DNA of 64,000 nt, from the NCBI RefSeq assembly GCF_011751865.2, contig NZ_CP061770.1, positions 2,728,001-2,792,000 on the forward strand. Reading direction: 5' to 3'. This stretch comes from Salinibacterium sp. ZJ70. GTDB lineage: Bacteria > Actinomycetota > Actinomycetes > Actinomycetales > Microbacteriaceae. Below, piece after piece: positions 7,796 through 14,013 of this stretch; the first letter of the stretch is position 1, and each line of letters opens with the position of its first letter. The notes below the pieces were generated by a model. The model was not told the DNA's origin, ran no database searches, and saw only the letters and a list, made by a program, of their open reading frames with translations. A program made the translations under genes and the position numbers.

Positions 7796-7829
7796 CTACG
7801 GCGTCGCACCTGAGGGAGCGACGCCGTAG
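7796..7829 (+). terminator. Hairpin between binding lipoprotein and receiver-deacetylase operon
   Basis: A perfect 12-base stem (CTACGGCGTCGC and its complement) with a 10-base loop lies 23 bases after the lipoprotein stop. It ends 18 bases before the first ATG of the next operon. It lacks a T tract, so it may be a weak terminator or a leader structure. It separates the iron-regulated gene from the six-gene operon. Confidence 0.45.
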
Positions 7830-7847: not shown

Positions 7848-8912
7848 ATGATGGATCAACACCGCAAGGTTCTCGTCGTCGATGACGATGCGGACGTCGC
7901 GCTCTACGTCAAGACGGTGCTCGAGCGTCGAGGCGGGTGCGTCGTGCGGACCGCAGGCGACGGACTCTCCGGCGTCGCCGCCGTCGCGGAATTCCGCCCC
8001 GACGTCGTCGTGACCGACATCGAGATGCCGGGACTCACCGGCCTCGACTTCATCGCCGCGATCCGTGCCGACCACCCCCGACTCCCCGTGGTCGTGATGA
8101 CCGCGCACGTCTCCGTCGAATACGCCGTCTCCGCACTGCGCGCTCAGGCCGACGAGTTCCTCACGAAGCCGCTCGACTCGGCGCGCCTCGTCGAGGTCGT
8201 CACCCGGCTCGCCGACGAAGGCCGCGCACGCCAGGCCGATGAGCCTCCCGCCCAGCGCGTGCTCGCGATCGGCGCGCACCCCGACGATGTCGAGATCGGC
8301 GTCGGCGGGATCCTCGCCGCCCACCGCGCCGCAGGCGACGAGGTCACGATCCTGACGCTCTCGCGCGGATCCCGCGGCGGCGACGTCGCCGACCGCCAGA
8401 GCGAATCGCTCTCCTCCGCCGAACTGCTCGGCGCGCGCCTCTTCCTGCACGACCTCGTGGACACCGAGATCACGAGCGGCGGCCCCACGGTGCGGCTCAT
8501 CGAGGAGGTCGTCCGCGAGGTCGCCCCCATGATCGTCTACACCCACACCGACCACGACCGCCACCAGGACCACCGCGCCGTGCACGCGGCCACGGTCGTC
8601 GCGACGCGCGCCATCGACACGGTCGGCTGCTACCAGTCCCCCTCCGCGACCATCGACTTCCGCCCCACCCGCTTCGTCGCGATCGACGGCTTCGTGGAGC
8701 GCAAGCTCGAGCTGCTCGCGTGCTTCAGCTCGCAGACCGACCGGCGCAGCTACCTCGACCCCGAGTTCGTGCGCGCGACCGCTCGCTACTGGTCCCGGTT
8801 CGGCGGCGGCACCGAGGTCGAGCCGCTCGAGATCGTGCGCGAGAGCGCCGACCTGTCGACCCCGCGGCGCACCCGCACGGATGCACAGTCGACGCGCGGA
8901 GATCTCCGATGA
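7848..8912 (+). CDS. Response-regulator receiver fused to PIG-L (LmbE-type) deacetylase
   Basis: A 354-residue fusion. Residues 6-122 are a CheY-like receiver: acidic pocket VVDDDAD, phospho-acceptor Asp57 in VTDIEMPG, Thr85 in MTAH and Lys107 in LTKPL, all present. Residues 137-320 are a PIG-L zinc N-deacetylase: His144, Asp146 and Asp147 in IGAHPDDVE, and the downstream HQDHRAVH supplying the third zinc ligand. There is no DNA-binding domain, so the output is enzymatic. PIG-L enzymes remove acetyl groups from GlcNAc-type sugars. The cognate kinase is probably the last gene of the same operon. An AGGGGGAAG site precedes tandem ATGs at 7848 and 7851. The stop overlaps the next start as ATGA. 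Confidence 0.9.
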   Translation: MMDQHRKVLVVDDDADVALYVKTVLERRGGCVVRTAGDGLSGVAAVAEFRPDVVVTDIEMPGLTGLDFIAAIRADHPRLPVVVMTAHVSVEYAVSALRAQADEFLTKPLDSARLVEVVTRLADEGRARQADEPPAQRVLAIGAHPDDVEIGVGGILAAHRAAGDEVTILTLSRGSRGGDVADRQSESLSSAELLGARLFLHDLVDTEITSGGPTVRLIEEVVREVAPMIVYTHTDHDRHQDHRAVHAATVVATRAIDTVGCYQSPSATIDFRPTRFVAIDGFVERKLELLACFSSQTDRRSYLDPEFVRATARYWSRFGGGTEVEPLEIVRESADLSTPRRTRTDAQSTRGDLR

Positions 8913-9898
8913 CGCGCGTGCTCGTCACCGGCGCGGGCGGGGCGGCGGGCGTCGCCGTCATCCGCTCGCTGCTGCACCGCGCCGATGTGACCGTGTTCGC
9001 CGCCGACATGGACGGCTGGGCGGCGGGCATCTACCTCGTCCCCGCCGAACAGCGGCGGCTCGTGGAGCCGGGCCGCGCCGACGGCTTCGTCCCCGGACTC
9101 GCCCGCATCGTCGCCGAGGACCGGATCGACGTCGTCATCTCGACGGTCGACGTCGAGCTCGCGGCCCTCGCCGCCCGCCGCCACGAACTCGCGCCCGCCG
9201 TGCTCGCCGCCCCCTCGGCCGACACCCTCGCGGCGTGCCTCGACAAGCTCGCACTCGCCGAACGCTGCGGCGCGACCGGCCACGCACCGCGCACCGTGCT
9301 CGCCGGACCCGATGCCTCCGCCGTCGACTGGGAGTTCCCCGTCTTCGCGAAGCCGCGCAGCGGCGCGGGTGGGCGCGGCATCCGGATGGTGCCCGACCGT
9401 GCCGCGCTCGACGCCCTCCCCACCGATGACGGGCTCATCGTGCAGGACCTGCTTCCGGGCGACGAGTACTCGGTGGATGTGATCGCCGACGCGAACGGCC
9501 ACGTCGTCGCCGCGGTGCCGCGCACGCGCGAGCGCGTCGACTCGGGCGTCGCGATCGCAGGCCGCACCGTGCACGACGCGGAACTCGAGCAGACCGCGGC
9601 CGACATCGCCCGCGCCATCGGCCTCGTCGGCGTCGCGAACGTGCAGCTGCGCCGCGACCGCGCAGGCCGCGCGAAGCTCCTCGAGGTCAACCCCCGGTTC
9701 CCGGGGGCTCTGCCGCTCACGATCGCGGCGGGCGTCGACATCCCATCGCTCGTCGTCGACCTGTTCACCGGCGTGCCGCTGCCCTCACGGATCGAGTTCG
9801 AGGAACGCGCCGTCGTGCGCTTCCTCGAAGACGTCATCCTCGATCCCGCCGAACTGCTCGTCTCCGAGCACGCCGCCCACCAGGTGGGAGACGCCTGA
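8909..9898 (+). CDS. ATP-grasp ligase of the carbamoyl-phosphate-synthase/PylC-like type
   Basis: A 329-residue protein with a Rossmann-like pre-ATP-grasp domain (MTRVLVTGAGGAAGVAVIRS) and an ATP-grasp fold. FAKPRSGAGGRGI near residue 150 is the glycine-rich ATP loop. DLLPGDEYSVDVIAD near 185 and LEVNPRFPGALPL near 255 carry the magnesium-binding Glu and Asn. Relatives ligate a carboxylate to an amine or amino sugar. In this operon it could attach an amino acid to the sugar or lipid handled by the deacetylase, which is inference. It overlaps both neighbours by a few bases, which indicates co-translation. Confidence 0.85.
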   Translation: MTRVLVTGAGGAAGVAVIRSLLHRADVTVFAADMDGWAAGIYLVPAEQRRLVEPGRADGFVPGLARIVAEDRIDVVISTVDVELAALAARRHELAPAVLAAPSADTLAACLDKLALAERCGATGHAPRTVLAGPDASAVDWEFPVFAKPRSGAGGRGIRMVPDRAALDALPTDDGLIVQDLLPGDEYSVDVIADANGHVVAAVPRTRERVDSGVAIAGRTVHDAELEQTAADIARAIGLVGVANVQLRRDRAGRAKLLEVNPRFPGALPLTIAAGVDIPSLVVDLFTGVPLPSRIEFEERAVVRFLEDVILDPAELLVSEHAAHQVGDA

Positions 9899-10617
9899 TG
9901 CACCCCGAACTGAGCGGCGACTTCCACGTGCACTCGACGTTCTCCGACGACGCCGTCTCGAGCCTGCAGGAGAACGTCGACGCGGCGCACGCCGCAGGGC
10001 TCACCGAGATCCGCCTCGTGGACCATGTGCGCGCGAGCACCACGTGGGTGCCCGAGTTCGTCGCCGCGGTCGCCGCCCTCGATGTGCCTGCGGGGCTCAC
10101 CGTGCACACCGGAGTCGAGGCGAAGATCCTCGACGCGTCGGGGACGCTCGACATCCCGACGGGCGTCGAGGGCATCGACCGCATCCTCATCGCCGACCAT
10201 CAGTTCCCGGGTGCCGACGGCCCCTGGTCTCCCGCGACGACGATCGAGCGGATCGCGAACGGACTCACCGTGGACGACGCTCTCGACCTCCTCATCGGGG
10301 GCCTCACCGGCGCGATGCGGCGCCACCCCGGAAACCAGCTCGCACACTGCTTCTCGATCCTCCCGAAGGTCGGGCTCCGCGAAGACCAGCTGGGCGATGA
10401 GCGCCTGCGCCTGTGGGCGGAGACCGCGGCCGCGACCGACACCTGGGTCGAGGTGAACGAGAAGTGGGCATGCCCCGGCCCCGCCGCTCTCGCCGCGGCC
10501 CGAGCAGCTGGCGTGCGCATCGTGGCCTCCACCGACAGCCACGACTCCCGGGAGGTCGGTCGCTACGACCGTGTCGCACAGCTCCTCGGCGCCGCGGTCG
10601 GCGCAGCGCGCACATGA
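9898..10617 (+). CDS. PHP-domain metal-dependent phosphoesterase
   Basis: A 239-residue PHP protein. GDFHVHSTFSDD near the start supplies His10 and His12. LVDHVRAS, GVEAKILD and TVHTG follow as motif II/III regions, and a C-terminal STDSHDSREVGRYD contributes the last metal ligands. The family hydrolyses phosphate monoesters such as histidinol phosphate, or nucleotide-type substrates. The specific substrate is unknown. The start shares one base with the previous stop (TGATG) and the stop overlaps the synthase start (ATGA), so it belongs firmly to this operon. A role in dephosphorylating a glycan precursor or product is plausible. Confidence 0.85.
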   Translation: MHPELSGDFHVHSTFSDDAVSSLQENVDAAHAAGLTEIRLVDHVRASTTWVPEFVAAVAALDVPAGLTVHTGVEAKILDASGTLDIPTGVEGIDRILIADHQFPGADGPWSPATTIERIANGLTVDDALDLLIGGLTGAMRRHPGNQLAHCFSILPKVGLREDQLGDERLRLWAETAAATDTWVEVNEKWACPGPAALAAARAAGVRIVASTDSHDSREVGRYDRVAQLLGAAVGAART

Positions 10618-12107
10618 TCGATTGGCTCGAGGTAGCGACGACCTCCCTGCAGGTCGTCCTGCTCGCCTTCGTCGCGACAGGGGCGGTGCCGGTCGTGACC
10701 GCCGCTCTCACCTTCCTCGTGGTGCCGCTGCACGCGTTCTTCAACCACAACAAGAAGGCCGACGCCCACTTCCCGAACGTCGCGATCATGGTGCCGGCGT
10801 GGAACGAAGGCAACGTCATCGGAGCGACGATCGACAACCTCGTCGCGCTCGAATACCCCAGCGACCGCGTGCGCATCTATGTGATCGACGACGCCTCCAC
10901 GGACGACACCCCGGATGTGGTGCGCGCGAAGGCCGCGCAGTATCCGGACCGGGTGGTGCTGCTGCGTCGTGAGCAGGGCGGGCAGGGCAAAGCCCACACC
11001 CTCAACCACGGCATCGAGATCGTGCTCGCCGACACCTGGGCGGAGGCGATCCTCATCATGGACGCCGACGTCATCTTCACGCCCACCTCGCTGCGGCGCA
11101 TGGCCCGGCACCTCGCCGACCCGAAGGTCGGCGCCGTGTCGGCCTACATCGCCGAAGGCAGCCGCGACCCGAACTACATGACGCGCTTCATCGCGATCGA
11201 GTACGTGCTCGCGCAGCTCGCCTCGCGCCGCGCCCAGAACGTGCTCGGCGCCCACGCCTGCCTCGCGGGCGGCGCACAGCTGCACTCGCGCGAGAACCTC
11301 GAAGGCATCGGCGGGCGCATCCCCACCGGCAGCCTCGCCGAGGACACCGTCGCGACCTTCGAATCGCAGCTGAACGGCAAGCGCATGGTGTTCGAGCCCT
11401 CGGCGATCGTCCTCGCCGAGGAGCCGAGCACCATCGACGGTCTCTGGAAGCAGCGCCTGCGATGGGCGCGCGGCAACGTCCAGGTCACGAGGATGTACCG
11501 GAAGGTGTGGCTTCGCCCCTCCCGGACGCACAACCTCGGCAGCCTCATCTTCGCGGCGTCGTGGTTCAGCATCTTCCTGCTGCCGTTCGCGATGATCCTG
11601 TCGTCGATCGGACTCGTCGGGCTGCTGCTCCTCGGGAGCGGCCTCTCGAAGCTCGTGTTCGAGCTCCTCTGGATCAGCGCGACCCTCGCCTACCTGTTCG
11701 CGATGATCCTCGGAGTCCAGCTCGACAGACGCGTCGGCCGGATGTCGTGGCGGGAGGCGTTCCTCTTCCCCGGCGCACTGTCGTTCGTCGTGATGCTCGC
11801 GGCGCTGTTCCCCGGCCTCGTCGAGGAGCACATCCCCGCGATGTTCGGCTTCGAGCTGCTGCCGATCGGCCACATGACCCTCACGCTCATCATCTACGCG
11901 TGGATCTCGCTGTCGATGGTGGGCGCGTGGATCGCGCGGGTGGTCGAGAAGCTCCCCGCGGGCCGGTTCCTGTCGCCGTTCCTCATCTACCTCGTCGGCT
12001 ACGGGCCGCTGCTGTGCGCGATCACCGCGGATTCGTACATCAAGGAGTGGAAGAAGGCCGACACCTCGTGGGTGAAGACCGTCAAGACGGGACGAGTGAC
12101 CGCATGA
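10614..12107 (+). CDS. Processive family-2 glycosyltransferase with membrane domain
   Basis: A 497-residue membrane synthase with an N-terminal helix (residues 10-40), a cytosolic GT-A domain and five or six C-terminal helices from about residue 305. All catalytic marks of processive GT2 enzymes are visible: VIDDAST at 90-96, the DAD nucleotide/metal site at 150-152, AEDT at 242-245 as the general-base region, and QRLRW at 280-284. This places it with PgaC/IcaA, hyaluronan and cellulose synthases, which polymerise and export beta-linked polysaccharide. With a small membrane partner immediately downstream and a deacetylase upstream, a GlcNAc-type polymer is a reasonable guess. The product is not identifiable. 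Confidence 0.9.
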   Translation: MIDWLEVATTSLQVVLLAFVATGAVPVVTAALTFLVVPLHAFFNHNKKADAHFPNVAIMVPAWNEGNVIGATIDNLVALEYPSDRVRIYVIDDASTDDTPDVVRAKAAQYPDRVVLLRREQGGQGKAHTLNHGIEIVLADTWAEAILIMDADVIFTPTSLRRMARHLADPKVGAVSAYIAEGSRDPNYMTRFIAIEYVLAQLASRRAQNVLGAHACLAGGAQLHSRENLEGIGGRIPTGSLAEDTVATFESQLNGKRMVFEPSAIVLAEEPSTIDGLWKQRLRWARGNVQVTRMYRKVWLRPSRTHNLGSLIFAASWFSIFLLPFAMILSSIGLVGLLLLGSGLSKLVFELLWISATLAYLFAMILGVQLDRRVGRMSWREAFLFPGALSFVVMLAALFPGLVEEHIPAMFGFELLPIGHMTLTLIIYAWISLSMVGAWIARVVEKLPAGRFLSPFLIYLVGYGPLLCAITADSYIKEWKKADTSWVKTVKTGRVTA

Positions 12108-12253
12108 GCGAGCTGACACGGCAGGACATCGCCCCCACCCGCACCGAGATCCGCGCCGACACCCGGCGCGAATTCCGTCTGCTGCTGAAGGCGGCAGTCG
12201 GGTTCCTCGCGATCGCGGGTGTGATCTGGCTGAGAGTGGAGTTCTTCGAGTGA
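12104..12253 (+). CDS. 49-residue single-pass membrane protein
   Basis: A short protein starting MSELTRQDIAPTRTEIRADT, with a charged N-terminal half and one transmembrane helix (LLLKAAVGFLAIAGVIWLRV), ending in FFE. It overlaps the synthase stop (ATGA) and the kinase start (GTGA), so it is very likely real. Its position directly after a PgaC-like synthase resembles the small PgaD/IcaD accessory subunits. The sequence is too short to assign a family. Tight coupling on both sides suggests one-to-one production with the synthase. Confidence 0.75.
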   Translation: MSELTRQDIAPTRTEIRADTRREFRLLLKAAVGFLAIAGVIWLRVEFFE

Positions 12254-14013
12254 GCCGGCTGACGAGCGTGCGCATGCGCGAGATGCTGGGGCGACAGCGC
12301 ACCCTGTGGTACATCGATTCGACGGGACCCACCCTGCTCATGCGGCAGGCGCCATCTGCGGTCGCACTGATCGTCGGCGTCACGCTCTCCATGGCGCTCG
12401 ACGACCTTCCGTTCACCCCGTTCGCCGCAGCGGGCTTCGGCCTCATCGTCGGCGCGACCATCGTGGCCATCGTCGCGACGCGCGAGCGCATCGCGATCGG
12501 ATGGATCGGGGCCCTCATCCCCATCGCGGACCTCATCGGATTCGGGCTCTTCCGCGCAGGAACGGGCGGAGCGACGTCGCTCTTCGGCGTGTTCCTGCTG
12601 CTCCCGTTGGTGTGGCTCGCAGCGCTCCCCGGATACCGCTACGTCATCATCGTGACCGTGCTCGGCTCGGGCCTGCAGGTGCTCCCGATGCTCACTCACG
12701 CCCCCAGCTCGTCGAGCGAATGGCTGCGCATGGTGATCACGCCCGCCGTCTACGCCGTCATCGCGATCATGATCAACGAGATCGCCCGCAATGGCCGTCT
12801 GCGCACCGCAGAGGCCCAGCAGCTTGCTGCGGAACGGGCCGCCGCGCTGGAGCGCAACCAACGTGTGCTGGAGCAGCTGCAAGAGTCGAAGCAGAACTAC
12901 GGCGAGCTCGTCGAGCTGTTCCGCAGTGTCTGGAATGCGATCACCGCACAGGCGATCATCGGCACCGATCGCGCCGGTCTCATCGTCACCTGGAACCCCG
13001 GCGCCACGATCCTGCTCGGCAGAGAGGATCTCGACACCGAGTACGCGGAGCGCATCGAGGCGTTCTTCCCGCCCTCCGTTCTCGATGGTCTCGCGGGATT
13101 CCCCGAGCACGGAGCGCAGCTCGCCCACGACCCGCTGCCCCCGGGCCTGCGCATGCTCTTCGACGCGGTCGACGCCGGCGCGACGGTCGAGCGCGAGCTC
13201 GACATGCTGCGGGACGACGGCAGCACCGTGCCCGTCCGCCTCGTCATCACGCAGCGCTTCGACGGCACCCGCACGCCCATCGGGTACCTGCTGGTCGCGA
13301 GTGACGAGACGCGCGCGATCGAGGTCGCCCGGATGAAGGACGAGTTCGTCGGCATGATCTCGCACGAGCTGCGCACCCCGCTCAGCTCGATCCTCGGCTA
13401 CCTGGAGCTGTTGCGGGACGACCCCCAGAATCCGCTCACCGAGGAGCAGCAGCAGTTCCTCGGCATCGCCGAGCGGAACGCGGAGCGCCTGCTGCGGCTC
13501 GGCGGCGACCTGCTGTTCACCGCGCAGGTCGAGTCAGGCCACTTCGCCCTGGAGACGCGTGAGGTCGACATCAGCGCGCTCATCGTCGCGGCGGTCGAAT
13601 CGGCGCGGCCCGCCGCCGACACCGCACGCGTGCGTCTCCGGATCGGCGGCTCGCTCGACACCGTGATCGCGCGCGTGGATCCGGTGCGCATCTCGCAGGC
13701 CGTCGACAACCTCGTCTCGAACGCGCTCAAGTTCACCCCGGCGGAGGGTGAGGTCGTGGTGACGCTCTCGCAGAACACCCGCTACATCGTGCTCTCGGTG
13801 CGCGACACCGGCGTCGGCATCCCCGCAGACGAACTCGACCGGCTGTTCACGCGCTTCTTCCGCGCCTCCACCGCCACCCGCAACGCCCTGCCCGGCGTCG
13901 GACTCGGACTCAACATCACGAAGGCCATCGTCACCGCGCACCGGGGCCGCATGGAGGTGTCGAGCGAGGTGGGCGTCGGAACCGAGTTCCGGATGATCCT
14001 CCCGCTCGACTAG
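12250..14013 (+). CDS. Membrane PAS sensor histidine kinase
   Basis: A 587-residue kinase. Residues 35-175 form about six membrane helices. A coiled-coil segment at 183-215 (TAEAQQLAAERAAALERNQ) leads into a PAS domain at about 222-350. The HisKA domain follows with His372 in MISHELRTPLSS. The HATPase domain carries the N box DNLVSNALKF, the G1 box DTGVGIP and the GVGLGL box. No extracytoplasmic loop is large, so it probably senses something in the membrane or through PAS. It is the last gene of the operon whose first gene encodes a receiver, which suggests a self-contained signalling pair. GTG overlaps the preceding stop. Confidence 0.9.
   Translation: MSRLTSVRMREMLGRQRTLWYIDSTGPTLLMRQAPSAVALIVGVTLSMALDDLPFTPFAAAGFGLIVGATIVAIVATRERIAIGWIGALIPIADLIGFGLFRAGTGGATSLFGVFLLLPLVWLAALPGYRYVIIVTVLGSGLQVLPMLTHAPSSSSEWLRMVITPAVYAVIAIMINEIARNGRLRTAEAQQLAAERAAALERNQRVLEQLQESKQNYGELVELFRSVWNAITAQAIIGTDRAGLIVTWNPGATILLGREDLDTEYAERIEAFFPPSVLDGLAGFPEHGAQLAHDPLPPGLRMLFDAVDAGATVERELDMLRDDGSTVPVRLVITQRFDGTRTPIGYLLVASDETRAIEVARMKDEFVGMISHELRTPLSSILGYLELLRDDPQNPLTEEQQQFLGIAERNAERLLRLGGDLLFTAQVESGHFALETREVDISALIVAAVESARPAADTARVRLRIGGSLDTVIARVDPVRISQAVDNLVSNALKFTPAEGEVVVTLSQNTRYIVLSVRDTGVGIPADELDRLFTRFFRASTATRNALPGVGLGLNITKAIVTAHRGRMEVSSEVGVGTEFRMILPLD

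Follow-up and report, generated by a model that had tools for sequence, protein, structure and literature searches.

De-N-acetylation determines the charge and the adhesion of synthase-dependent polymers such as poly-N-acetylglucosamine (PNAG). The closest described systems, the pgaABCD and icaADBC operons and MatAB of Streptomyces, combine a membrane glycosyltransferase of family 2 (GT2), a small membrane partner and an N-deacetylase. Mycothiol and bacillithiol follow another pathway logic, with a transferase, a deacetylase and an ATP-dependent ligase. Equally, response regulators with enzymatic output domains such as PleD, CheB and RssB are established. For PNAG, cellulose and other known polysaccharides made by synthases, control by cyclic di-GMP dominates the discussion, and it is the subject named in the title of PMC8461298. 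Here, an operon of the actinobacterium Salinibacterium sp. ZJ70 (Microbacteriaceae) has been analysed, which resembles the PNAG systems in the presence of a membrane GT2, a small membrane protein and an N-deacetylase, and which occupies positions 7848 to 14013 in a stretch of 64,000 nucleotides (contig NZ_CP061770.1, 2,728,001 to 2,792,000), the whole of which is called the window. With a confidence just short of even, this operon is read as a two-component-controlled glycan synthase system, probably for an amino-sugar glycan of the cell surface, PNAG-like in its logic but no PNAG operon. Directly observed are the gene order, the phyletic coupling of the genes, the alternation of two phosphatase families and the coupling between residues of the deacetylase protein and the genes around it.

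The operon and its predicted parts

Six open reading frames (ORFs) on the plus strand overlap end to end by 1 or 4 bases each (ATGA at 8909-8912, TGATG at 9896-9900, ATGA at 10614-10617, ATGA at 12104-12107 and GTGA at 12250-12253), as claimed in an earlier sequence-only reading of the window. The whole operon spans less than 6.2 kb and, with kinase, putative switch, synthase and modifying enzymes together, provides a clear genetic handle. No DNA-binding domain was detected among the six proteins by a Pfam scan. An inverted repeat of 15 bp, its arms 4 nt apart (7796-7829), lies 18 bases 5' of the operon start and could either terminate the upstream substrate-binding-protein gene or form a leader hairpin.

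Gene 1 (7848..8912, 354 amino acids (aa)) encodes, as assessed by Pfam, alignments and an AlphaFold2 model (pLDDT 90.4, pTM 0.71), a receiver (residues 8-118; Response_reg, 103.1 bits) fused to a PIG-L/LmbE de-N-acetylase (residues 139-252; PIG-L, 85.1 bits). The receiver set is complete, with the acidic pair D12 D13, the phospho-Asp D57, T85 and K107; equally, the deacetylase has its HxDD motif, the distal His and, from the HxDH loop, both His and Asp (H144, D146, D147, H239, D241, H242). According to a review on LmbE-like enzymes (PMC4101496), metal is bound by a His-Asp-His set, an Asp is the general base and alanine mutants of a further His and Asp in MshB retain at most 1% of activity; mapped from this source, H144, D147 and H242 would be metal ligands and D146 the base, joined by H239 and D241. 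No hydrophobic segment is predicted, in line with the earlier view of an intracellular PIG-L deacetylase that carries its own receiver. Source annotations name such fusions, for example, 'response regulator' or 'LmbE ... deacetylase/CheY-like', therefore the architecture has already been met by annotation pipelines; among the 50 structure matches listed, no description names a receiver-deacetylase. Among structures of the PIG-L fold is the hydratase GalB (5cgz), therefore the fold alone cannot fix the reaction.

Gene 2 (8909..9898, 329 aa) is assigned to the ATP-grasp ligases of the ATPgrasp_Ter / PRK12767 type by Pfam, NCBIfam and residue conservation over 67 rows, with PF15632 ATPgrasp_Ter as the best Pfam family (106.5 bits, cut-off 29.1) and PylC as a weak relative (43.2 bits, cut-off 248.3). 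Gene 3 (9898..10617, 239 aa) encodes a PHP-family phosphoesterase, as indicated by Pfam (PHP, 33.8 bits against a cut-off of 26.4), by alignment and by its phyletic match with the GT2; H10, H12, H43, E74, H101, H150, D213 and H215 are invariant in 55/55 rows and make up the metal-binding His/Asp/Glu set expected of PHP enzymes. Gene 4 (10614..12107, 497 aa) is a membrane GT2 by Pfam (Glyco_tranf_2_3, 118.1 bits, with no PilZ domain reported), NCBIfam, structure model and alignments, in which an N-terminal helix (4-41) is followed by a GT-A domain, C-terminal membrane and interface helices and a C-terminal tail. Its D, DxD, ED and QxxRW motifs are indeed intact (D92 D93, D150-x-D152, E243 D244, Q280-x-x-R283 W284) and conserved in 69/69 rows at all positions except E243 (68/69). 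Other GT2 matches to this protein in its own genome (2.84 Mb, one contig) are weak, with 27 bits at most.

Gene 5 (12104..12253) encodes a 49-aa protein with one predicted transmembrane (TM) segment and without a match in Pfam and NCBIfam scans. In a survey of downstream ORFs, an ORF of less than 90 aa stands immediately 3' of the GT2 in 55/63 GT2 loci from actinobacteria to alphaproteobacteria, and [D/N]-x-x-x-E occurs in 54/55 of these short ORFs, as D-x-R-x-E in 29. As the relatives' genes were called by a home-made codon-score caller that may miss short genes, the 8/63 loci without such an ORF, two of which are lone Leifsonia copies, represent an upper bound. A short membrane protein beside the GT2 across this range is pointed to by the present set. 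Gene 6 (12250..14013, 587 aa) is, by Pfam and alignment, a membrane histidine kinase (HATPase_c 100.4 bits, HisKA 70.0 bits), with H372 and N491 invariant in 61/61 kinase rows. The families or types of the other five genes stand as originally assigned; the PAS domain ascribed to the kinase is weak (PAS_9, 20.9 bits, below the cut-off of 27).

Conservation, phosphatase alternation and residue couplings

Conservation within the Microbacteriaceae was assessed in 299 evenly drawn genomes from 85 genera, with thresholds of E <= 1e-60 for the GT2 and the receiver-deacetylase and of E <= 1e-15 for PHP (genomes are labelled G and loci L). The GT2 was found in 31/299 genomes and 15/85 genera, PHP in the identical 31 genomes and in none of the remaining 268, and the receiver-deacetylase in 49, including all 31 with GT2 and PHP. 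Linkage of GT2 and receiver-deacetylase is seen in 26/31 genomes. The order there begins with receiver-deacetylase, ATP-grasp, PHP and GT2, continues as a rule with a short TM protein and in most cases with one or two single-domain receivers, and closes with the kinase. A chance neighbourhood has been rejected on the identical phyletic sets of GT2 and PHP together with the conserved gene order. The stand-alone receivers precede the kinase in 26/31 genomes, the others being that of the window, G022, G026, G165 and G333; because most relatives carry them, the six-gene form is a trimmed version. In G165, the kinase is found neither beside the operon nor as an ortholog in the genome, and in G263 the contig ends within the kinase. 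Five genomes of genus g85 have the only GT2 copy found in them elsewhere, without other operon genes, and the rest of the operon stays together. Lone GT2 copies are located at L041:7475-8968, L051:6616-8109, L092-L095 and L114:6935-8452; those of L041, L051 and L114 belong to the same GT2 clade, and the lone copy of G033 is a second GT2.

Presence is patchy: of eight genomes of the window's genus, G006, G007 and G008 have the operon and G001-G005 do not. A tblastn search of 72,556 plasmid records with the window GT2 gave 854 records with a match, none covering 80% in one place, and no plasmid match was obtained for the GT2 of L127 (E <= 1e-60) or the window PIG-L domain (E <= 1e-25); a plasmid origin was rejected on this null result, which still leaves room for transfer from chromosome to chromosome. 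In several loci (L053-L058, L060, L064, L068, L075, L080, L082, L050, L052, L037) a carbon-nitrogen hydrolase gene lies directly 5' of the receiver-deacetylase or 3' of the kinase, with a class I/II aminotransferase gene on the opposite strand nearby. This neighbourhood, not seen around the window operon, is perhaps the ancestral site of the cassette. In L071:7900-17000 (G030), several receiver and kinase genes or fragments are arrayed after the receiver-deacetylase.

Beyond the family, a GT2 of the clade (E <= 1e-50) was detected in 5/296 genomes of a class-wide sample, two of them from the window's own family. When named genome contigs were scanned with an alignment of seven rows, the best 80 loci included 30 full or partial relatives (L103-L132) with 45-56% identity. 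These come from Cellulomonas, Serinicoccus, Occultella, Pseudactinotalea, Blastococcus, Leucobacter, Leifsonia, Microbacterium, Miltoncostaea, one metagenome-assembled genome (MAG) each of the Frankiaceae, the Solirubrobacterales and the Myxococcales, a MAG labelled Burkholderiales, Rhodospirillales bacterium URHD0017 and some further MAGs. In 22/30 of these loci the order is deacetylase, ATP-grasp, PHP, GT2, and Cellulomonas, Blastococcus, Frankiaceae and Miltoncostaea all have these enzymes as a group; together with the 26/31 linked family genomes this bears out the expectation of synteny outside close relatives. The remaining eight are the cut contigs L106 and L107, the lone Leifsonia GT2s L114, L130 and L131 (L131 also cut) and the variants L127, L128 and L129. 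The Frankiaceae MAG has the kinase upstream and two receivers on its deacetylase. In L110:4088-11140, L120:4103-10846 and L123:4091-10840, a decayed receiver precedes PIG-L, no kinase lies in the stretch and two extra genes (488-606 aa and 246-250 aa) are present, of which the pair in L110 is without Pfam match.

In the order of URHD0017, the GT2 occurs in 11/76 genomes. Seven of the ten other GT2 genomes of this order were read; GT2, short TM protein, receiver-PIG-L and ATP-grasp are found in 7/7, a histidine phosphatase in 6/7 and a TPR-repeat protein in 6/7. In the class of the Burkholderiales-labelled genome, the GT2 was found in 1/185 genomes, that genome itself; its cluster (L127:1848-8577) includes a kinase and a separate gene for an Hpt domain, which suggests a multistep relay. 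The TPR protein beside the GT2 in the alphaproteobacterial clusters starts like a signal peptide in most cases, as judged by eye, and has a C part of about 230 aa that is amphipathic and aromatic-ended, with a beta periodicity as in the PgaA barrel in the two proteins measured. It ends in Trp in 6/8 aligned proteins; that of L127 ends in YWR and that of L201 seems cut or frameshifted. The likeness to PgaA/BcsC is weak and confined to the TPR part; the C part gave neither a family match nor a profile match to the PgaA/BcsC barrels. If the C part were a barrel, the layout would be that of known polysaccharide exporters.

The phosphatase differs between lineages. Among 84 distinct PIG-L loci, PHP together with ATP-grasp was found in 54 and His_Phos in eight, never both, and three loci with ATP-grasp have neither (L136, L141, L195). 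No PHP was detected in the genomes of L127 and L129 at E <= 0.001, and one in the genome of L128. On these patterns of presence, the alternation is read as an apparent non-orthologous replacement of one phosphatase step. In a further arrangement (L044:7038-11382), the genes for PIG-L and GT2 are followed by one in which ATP-grasp forms the rear part of a fusion protein and an exosortase/archaeosortase domain the front part (TIGR04178, 28.6 bits, cut-off 23), with a WecB-like gene, recognised by eye, downstream; the Actinoplanes loci L136 and L141 have the same gene order, and the exosortase scan covered L044.

The two halves of gene 1 appear to follow different partners. The catalytic residues are complete in 64/65 loci with ATP-grasp in the stretch, the exception L113 being a gene truncated in the call, and hence in 64/64 complete genes. 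GT2, PHP and ATP-grasp were not found in 18 of the 49 family genomes with a receiver-deacetylase, and in 11 of these 18 one to three of the six catalytic residues are lost (G016, G045, G052, G117, G130, G137, G153, G213, G234, G286, G318). The other seven, five of which belong to one genus, retain the site. Genus g38 shows both states, with an intact site in two genomes that carry the glycan genes and a broken one in two that lack them. In a deacetylase tree of 82 rows, from which L111, L108, L122, L113 and L196 were omitted, glycan-less forms are nested among glycan-bearing ones, with two changes of gene state and five of site state; an independent-pairs sign test had two pairs and is powerless. 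All five breakages fall into 21% of the tree length, with a probability of 4e-4 under uniform breakage on this quick tree with its long branch L062; without L062, four breakages fall into 15% of the tree length (6e-4).

The five receiver residues are intact in 62/62 loci with a kinase in the stretch, where presence means a kinase-like gene anywhere in the stretch analysed; three Blastococcus loci have it outside the operon, ending about 3 kb upstream in L124. L111, L108 and L122, duplicates of G345, G264 and G215, were excluded from the coupling counts. Among loci without kinase, at least one receiver residue is lost in 12/17, with the phospho-Asp itself replaced in only one of the 12; these decayed receivers represent about three lineages (Serinicoccus/Occultella/Pseudactinotalea, the alphaproteobacterial loci and G153) and are so not independent. 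Five receivers are intact without a kinase in the stretch (L059, L086, L066, L102, L126): kinase orthologs lie elsewhere in the genome of L059, the contig ends in L086, and no ortholog was found for L066 and L102 (E <= 1e-60). G165 and G507, with an intact receiver and no kinase ortholog, are exceptions to the coupling. On the glycan-less side, the phospho-histidine of the kinase is retained in 16/16 genomes with a kinase in the stretch read. So the receiver seems to track the kinase and the deacetylase the biosynthetic genes, among related genomes that are not independent. These two couplings lend support, from comparative sequence data, to a role of the deacetylase in the pathway of its neighbours and to an action of the kinase on the receiver. 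The label 'self-contained' given to the operon was overstated, considering the lack of a DNA-binding domain, the missing stand-alone receiver of most relatives and the persistence of kinase and receiver-deacetylase without glycan genes in other genomes.

Proposed function and rival explanations

In the proposed mechanism, the membrane kinase would phosphorylate the receiver and thereby change the rate of the deacetylase fused to it, which would set the amount of amino sugar. In the cytoplasm, PIG-L would de-N-acetylate a primer or a building block. The ATP-grasp enzyme might attach a carboxylic acid, which could be an amino acid, to the amine so freed or to a similar group, and the phosphatase (a PHP protein in this operon, His_Phos in some Proteobacteria) would dephosphorylate an intermediate. 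Together with the one-TM protein, the GT2 would polymerise, and probably extrude, a glycan of the N-acetylglucosamine (GlcNAc) type, as suggested by the fold, the motifs and the putative TPR protein of Gram-negative relatives. We infer the order of the deacetylase, ligase and phosphatase steps, the substrate and the polymer; the product, the ligated group and the direction of the phospho-switch are guesses.

Judged from the model, the GT2 likely makes a polymer. A processive type is supported because of the fold, which resembles hyaluronan and cellulose synthases and aligns with both over most of the GT2 length, and because Gram-negative relatives have a TPR protein that is putatively in the outer membrane. 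On a quick tree, the GT2s of this type group in a single clade (SH-aLRT 99), separate from the long branches of PgaC, NodC, BcsA and NfrB, and do not fall into a characterised non-polymerising clade. Two features qualify this assignment. The closest fold is that of the membrane mannosyltransferase PcManGT (6yv7) of Pyrobaculum, which leaves the processive assignment only partly upheld. Furthermore, the invariant tail motif W486-x-K488-T489-x-K491-x-G493, present as W-x-K-T-x-K in 69/69 rows, has the spacing of the motif FxVTxK (PMC10592267) of gating loops, which lie between an interface helix and a TM helix, but is situated in the tail after the last helix (463-479).

This fold match speaks for a rival that is on balance unlikely but has to be taken seriously, in which a non-processive GT2 adds one GlcNAc to a membrane lipid, PIG-L deacetylates it as in glycosylphosphatidylinositol or mycothiol synthesis, a phosphate is removed and ATP-grasp acylates the amine to give an aminoacyl-glucosaminyl lipid. 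The four activities fit the logic of mycothiol and bacillithiol, and in distant cousins (L043, L047) a PIG-L protein with a hydrophobic N-terminus, as judged by eye, adjoins ATP-grasp and GT2. Equally, LmbE-like enzymes known in 2014 use GlcNAc or N-acylglucosamine cores (PMC4101496). Against this rival stand the size of the GT2, which exceeds PcManGT by about 150 residues and can be aligned for the greater part with hyaluronan synthase and BcsA, and the putative outer-membrane TPR protein that adjoins it in alphaproteobacterial loci. That the operon would produce a soluble nucleoside-like or sugar metabolite on which the GT2 acts draws on ATPgrasp_Ter as the best family of gene 2 and has only a slight probability, given that GT2 and partner are predicted membrane proteins.

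The 18/49 fusion genomes without ATP-grasp, PHP and GT2, together with the loss of catalytic residues in 11 of them and an intact receiver in 10 of those 11, would suit the quite improbable alternative that receiver-PIG-L chiefly serves the kinase in signalling. Its deacetylase domain would bind a sugar ligand, the receiver would not gate catalysis and the biosynthetic genes would be a lineage-dependent partner. Yet the glycan-less forms are nested in glycan-bearing ones (SH-aLRT 80 and 95), so that the enzyme state looks ancestral, and loci without kinase lose receiver residues yet retain catalytic residues, except G153. Lineages with kinase and receiver that lack the glycan genes provide a natural experiment on the transition from an enzyme to a signalling pseudo-enzyme. 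If the glycan synthase reading is true, the receiver fused to the deacetylase would be a direct phospho-switch on glycan chemistry. More tentatively, and at a lower confidence than the glycan synthase reading itself, a hitherto undescribed, phylum-spanning class of glycan machines can be envisaged. In this class the kinase would directly phosphorylate a de-N-acetylase and so set the make-up of an exported amino-sugar polymer, not via transcription or cyclic di-GMP; the phosphatase would be interchangeable between Actinomycetota and Proteobacteria, and loss of the biosynthetic genes would turn the enzyme-regulator into a signalling pseudo-enzyme.

Comparison with known systems

Membership in the pga/ica family has been rejected on the GT2 score, the type of deacetylase and the lack of a PgaD/IcaD-type partner. 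PgaC/IcaA (TIGR03937) is the best NCBIfam model of the GT2, with 132.5 bits far under the cut-off of 422.3, and the GT2 belongs to another clade. PIG-L is the only deacetylase domain among the six proteins by Pfam, with no CE4-type PgaB/IcaB deacetylase, and no PgaD/IcaD-type partner was found among them with Pfam and NCBIfam. Compared with PNAG operons, the deacetylase is a PIG-L domain fused to a receiver, not an extracytoplasmic CE4 enzyme, and an ATP-grasp ligase, a phosphatase and a kinase are added. The CE4 domain of MatB is extracellular (PMC5972031); unlike MatB, the receiver-deacetylase should act intracellularly on a precursor or primer, because it has no hydrophobic segment. The parallel with PNAG drawn in the sequence-only reading thus holds for the functional logic and fails for the components, as a cytoplasmic PIG-L is unable to trim the chain after extrusion. 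A further likeness is to PgaA, with TPR and barrel, in the TPR protein with its putative barrel of the alphaproteobacterial relatives. An idea that involved the Leptothrix sheath was dropped for lack of evidence.

In the rows of the fold comparison, identity of the GT2 is 16-19% to BcsA and 11-13% to viral hyaluronan synthase; unlike in these synthases, its motif lies after the last helix and a PilZ domain is not reported by Pfam. PcManGT, with a solved chain about 150 residues shorter, belongs to an archaeal N-glycan context, as the title of its paper indicates. MshB and BshB of the mycothiol and bacillithiol pathways share the LmbE/PIG-L deacetylase with its HxDD...H site; here, in contrast, the GT2 is a predicted integral membrane protein, the deacetylase carries a receiver and the ligase is of ATP-grasp type. 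In agreement with the earlier statement that no system of this composition is described, neither the receiver-PIG-L fusion nor the operon appeared among the matches listed from titles and abstract starts of open-licence PubMed Central, with subscription papers and preprints outside this search. As in PleD, CheB and RssB, a receiver precedes an enzyme domain and a kinase is adjacent, and the output is here a PIG-L deacetylase. The system is classed as a synthase-dependent glycan type with a new mode of control, outside the PNAG family.

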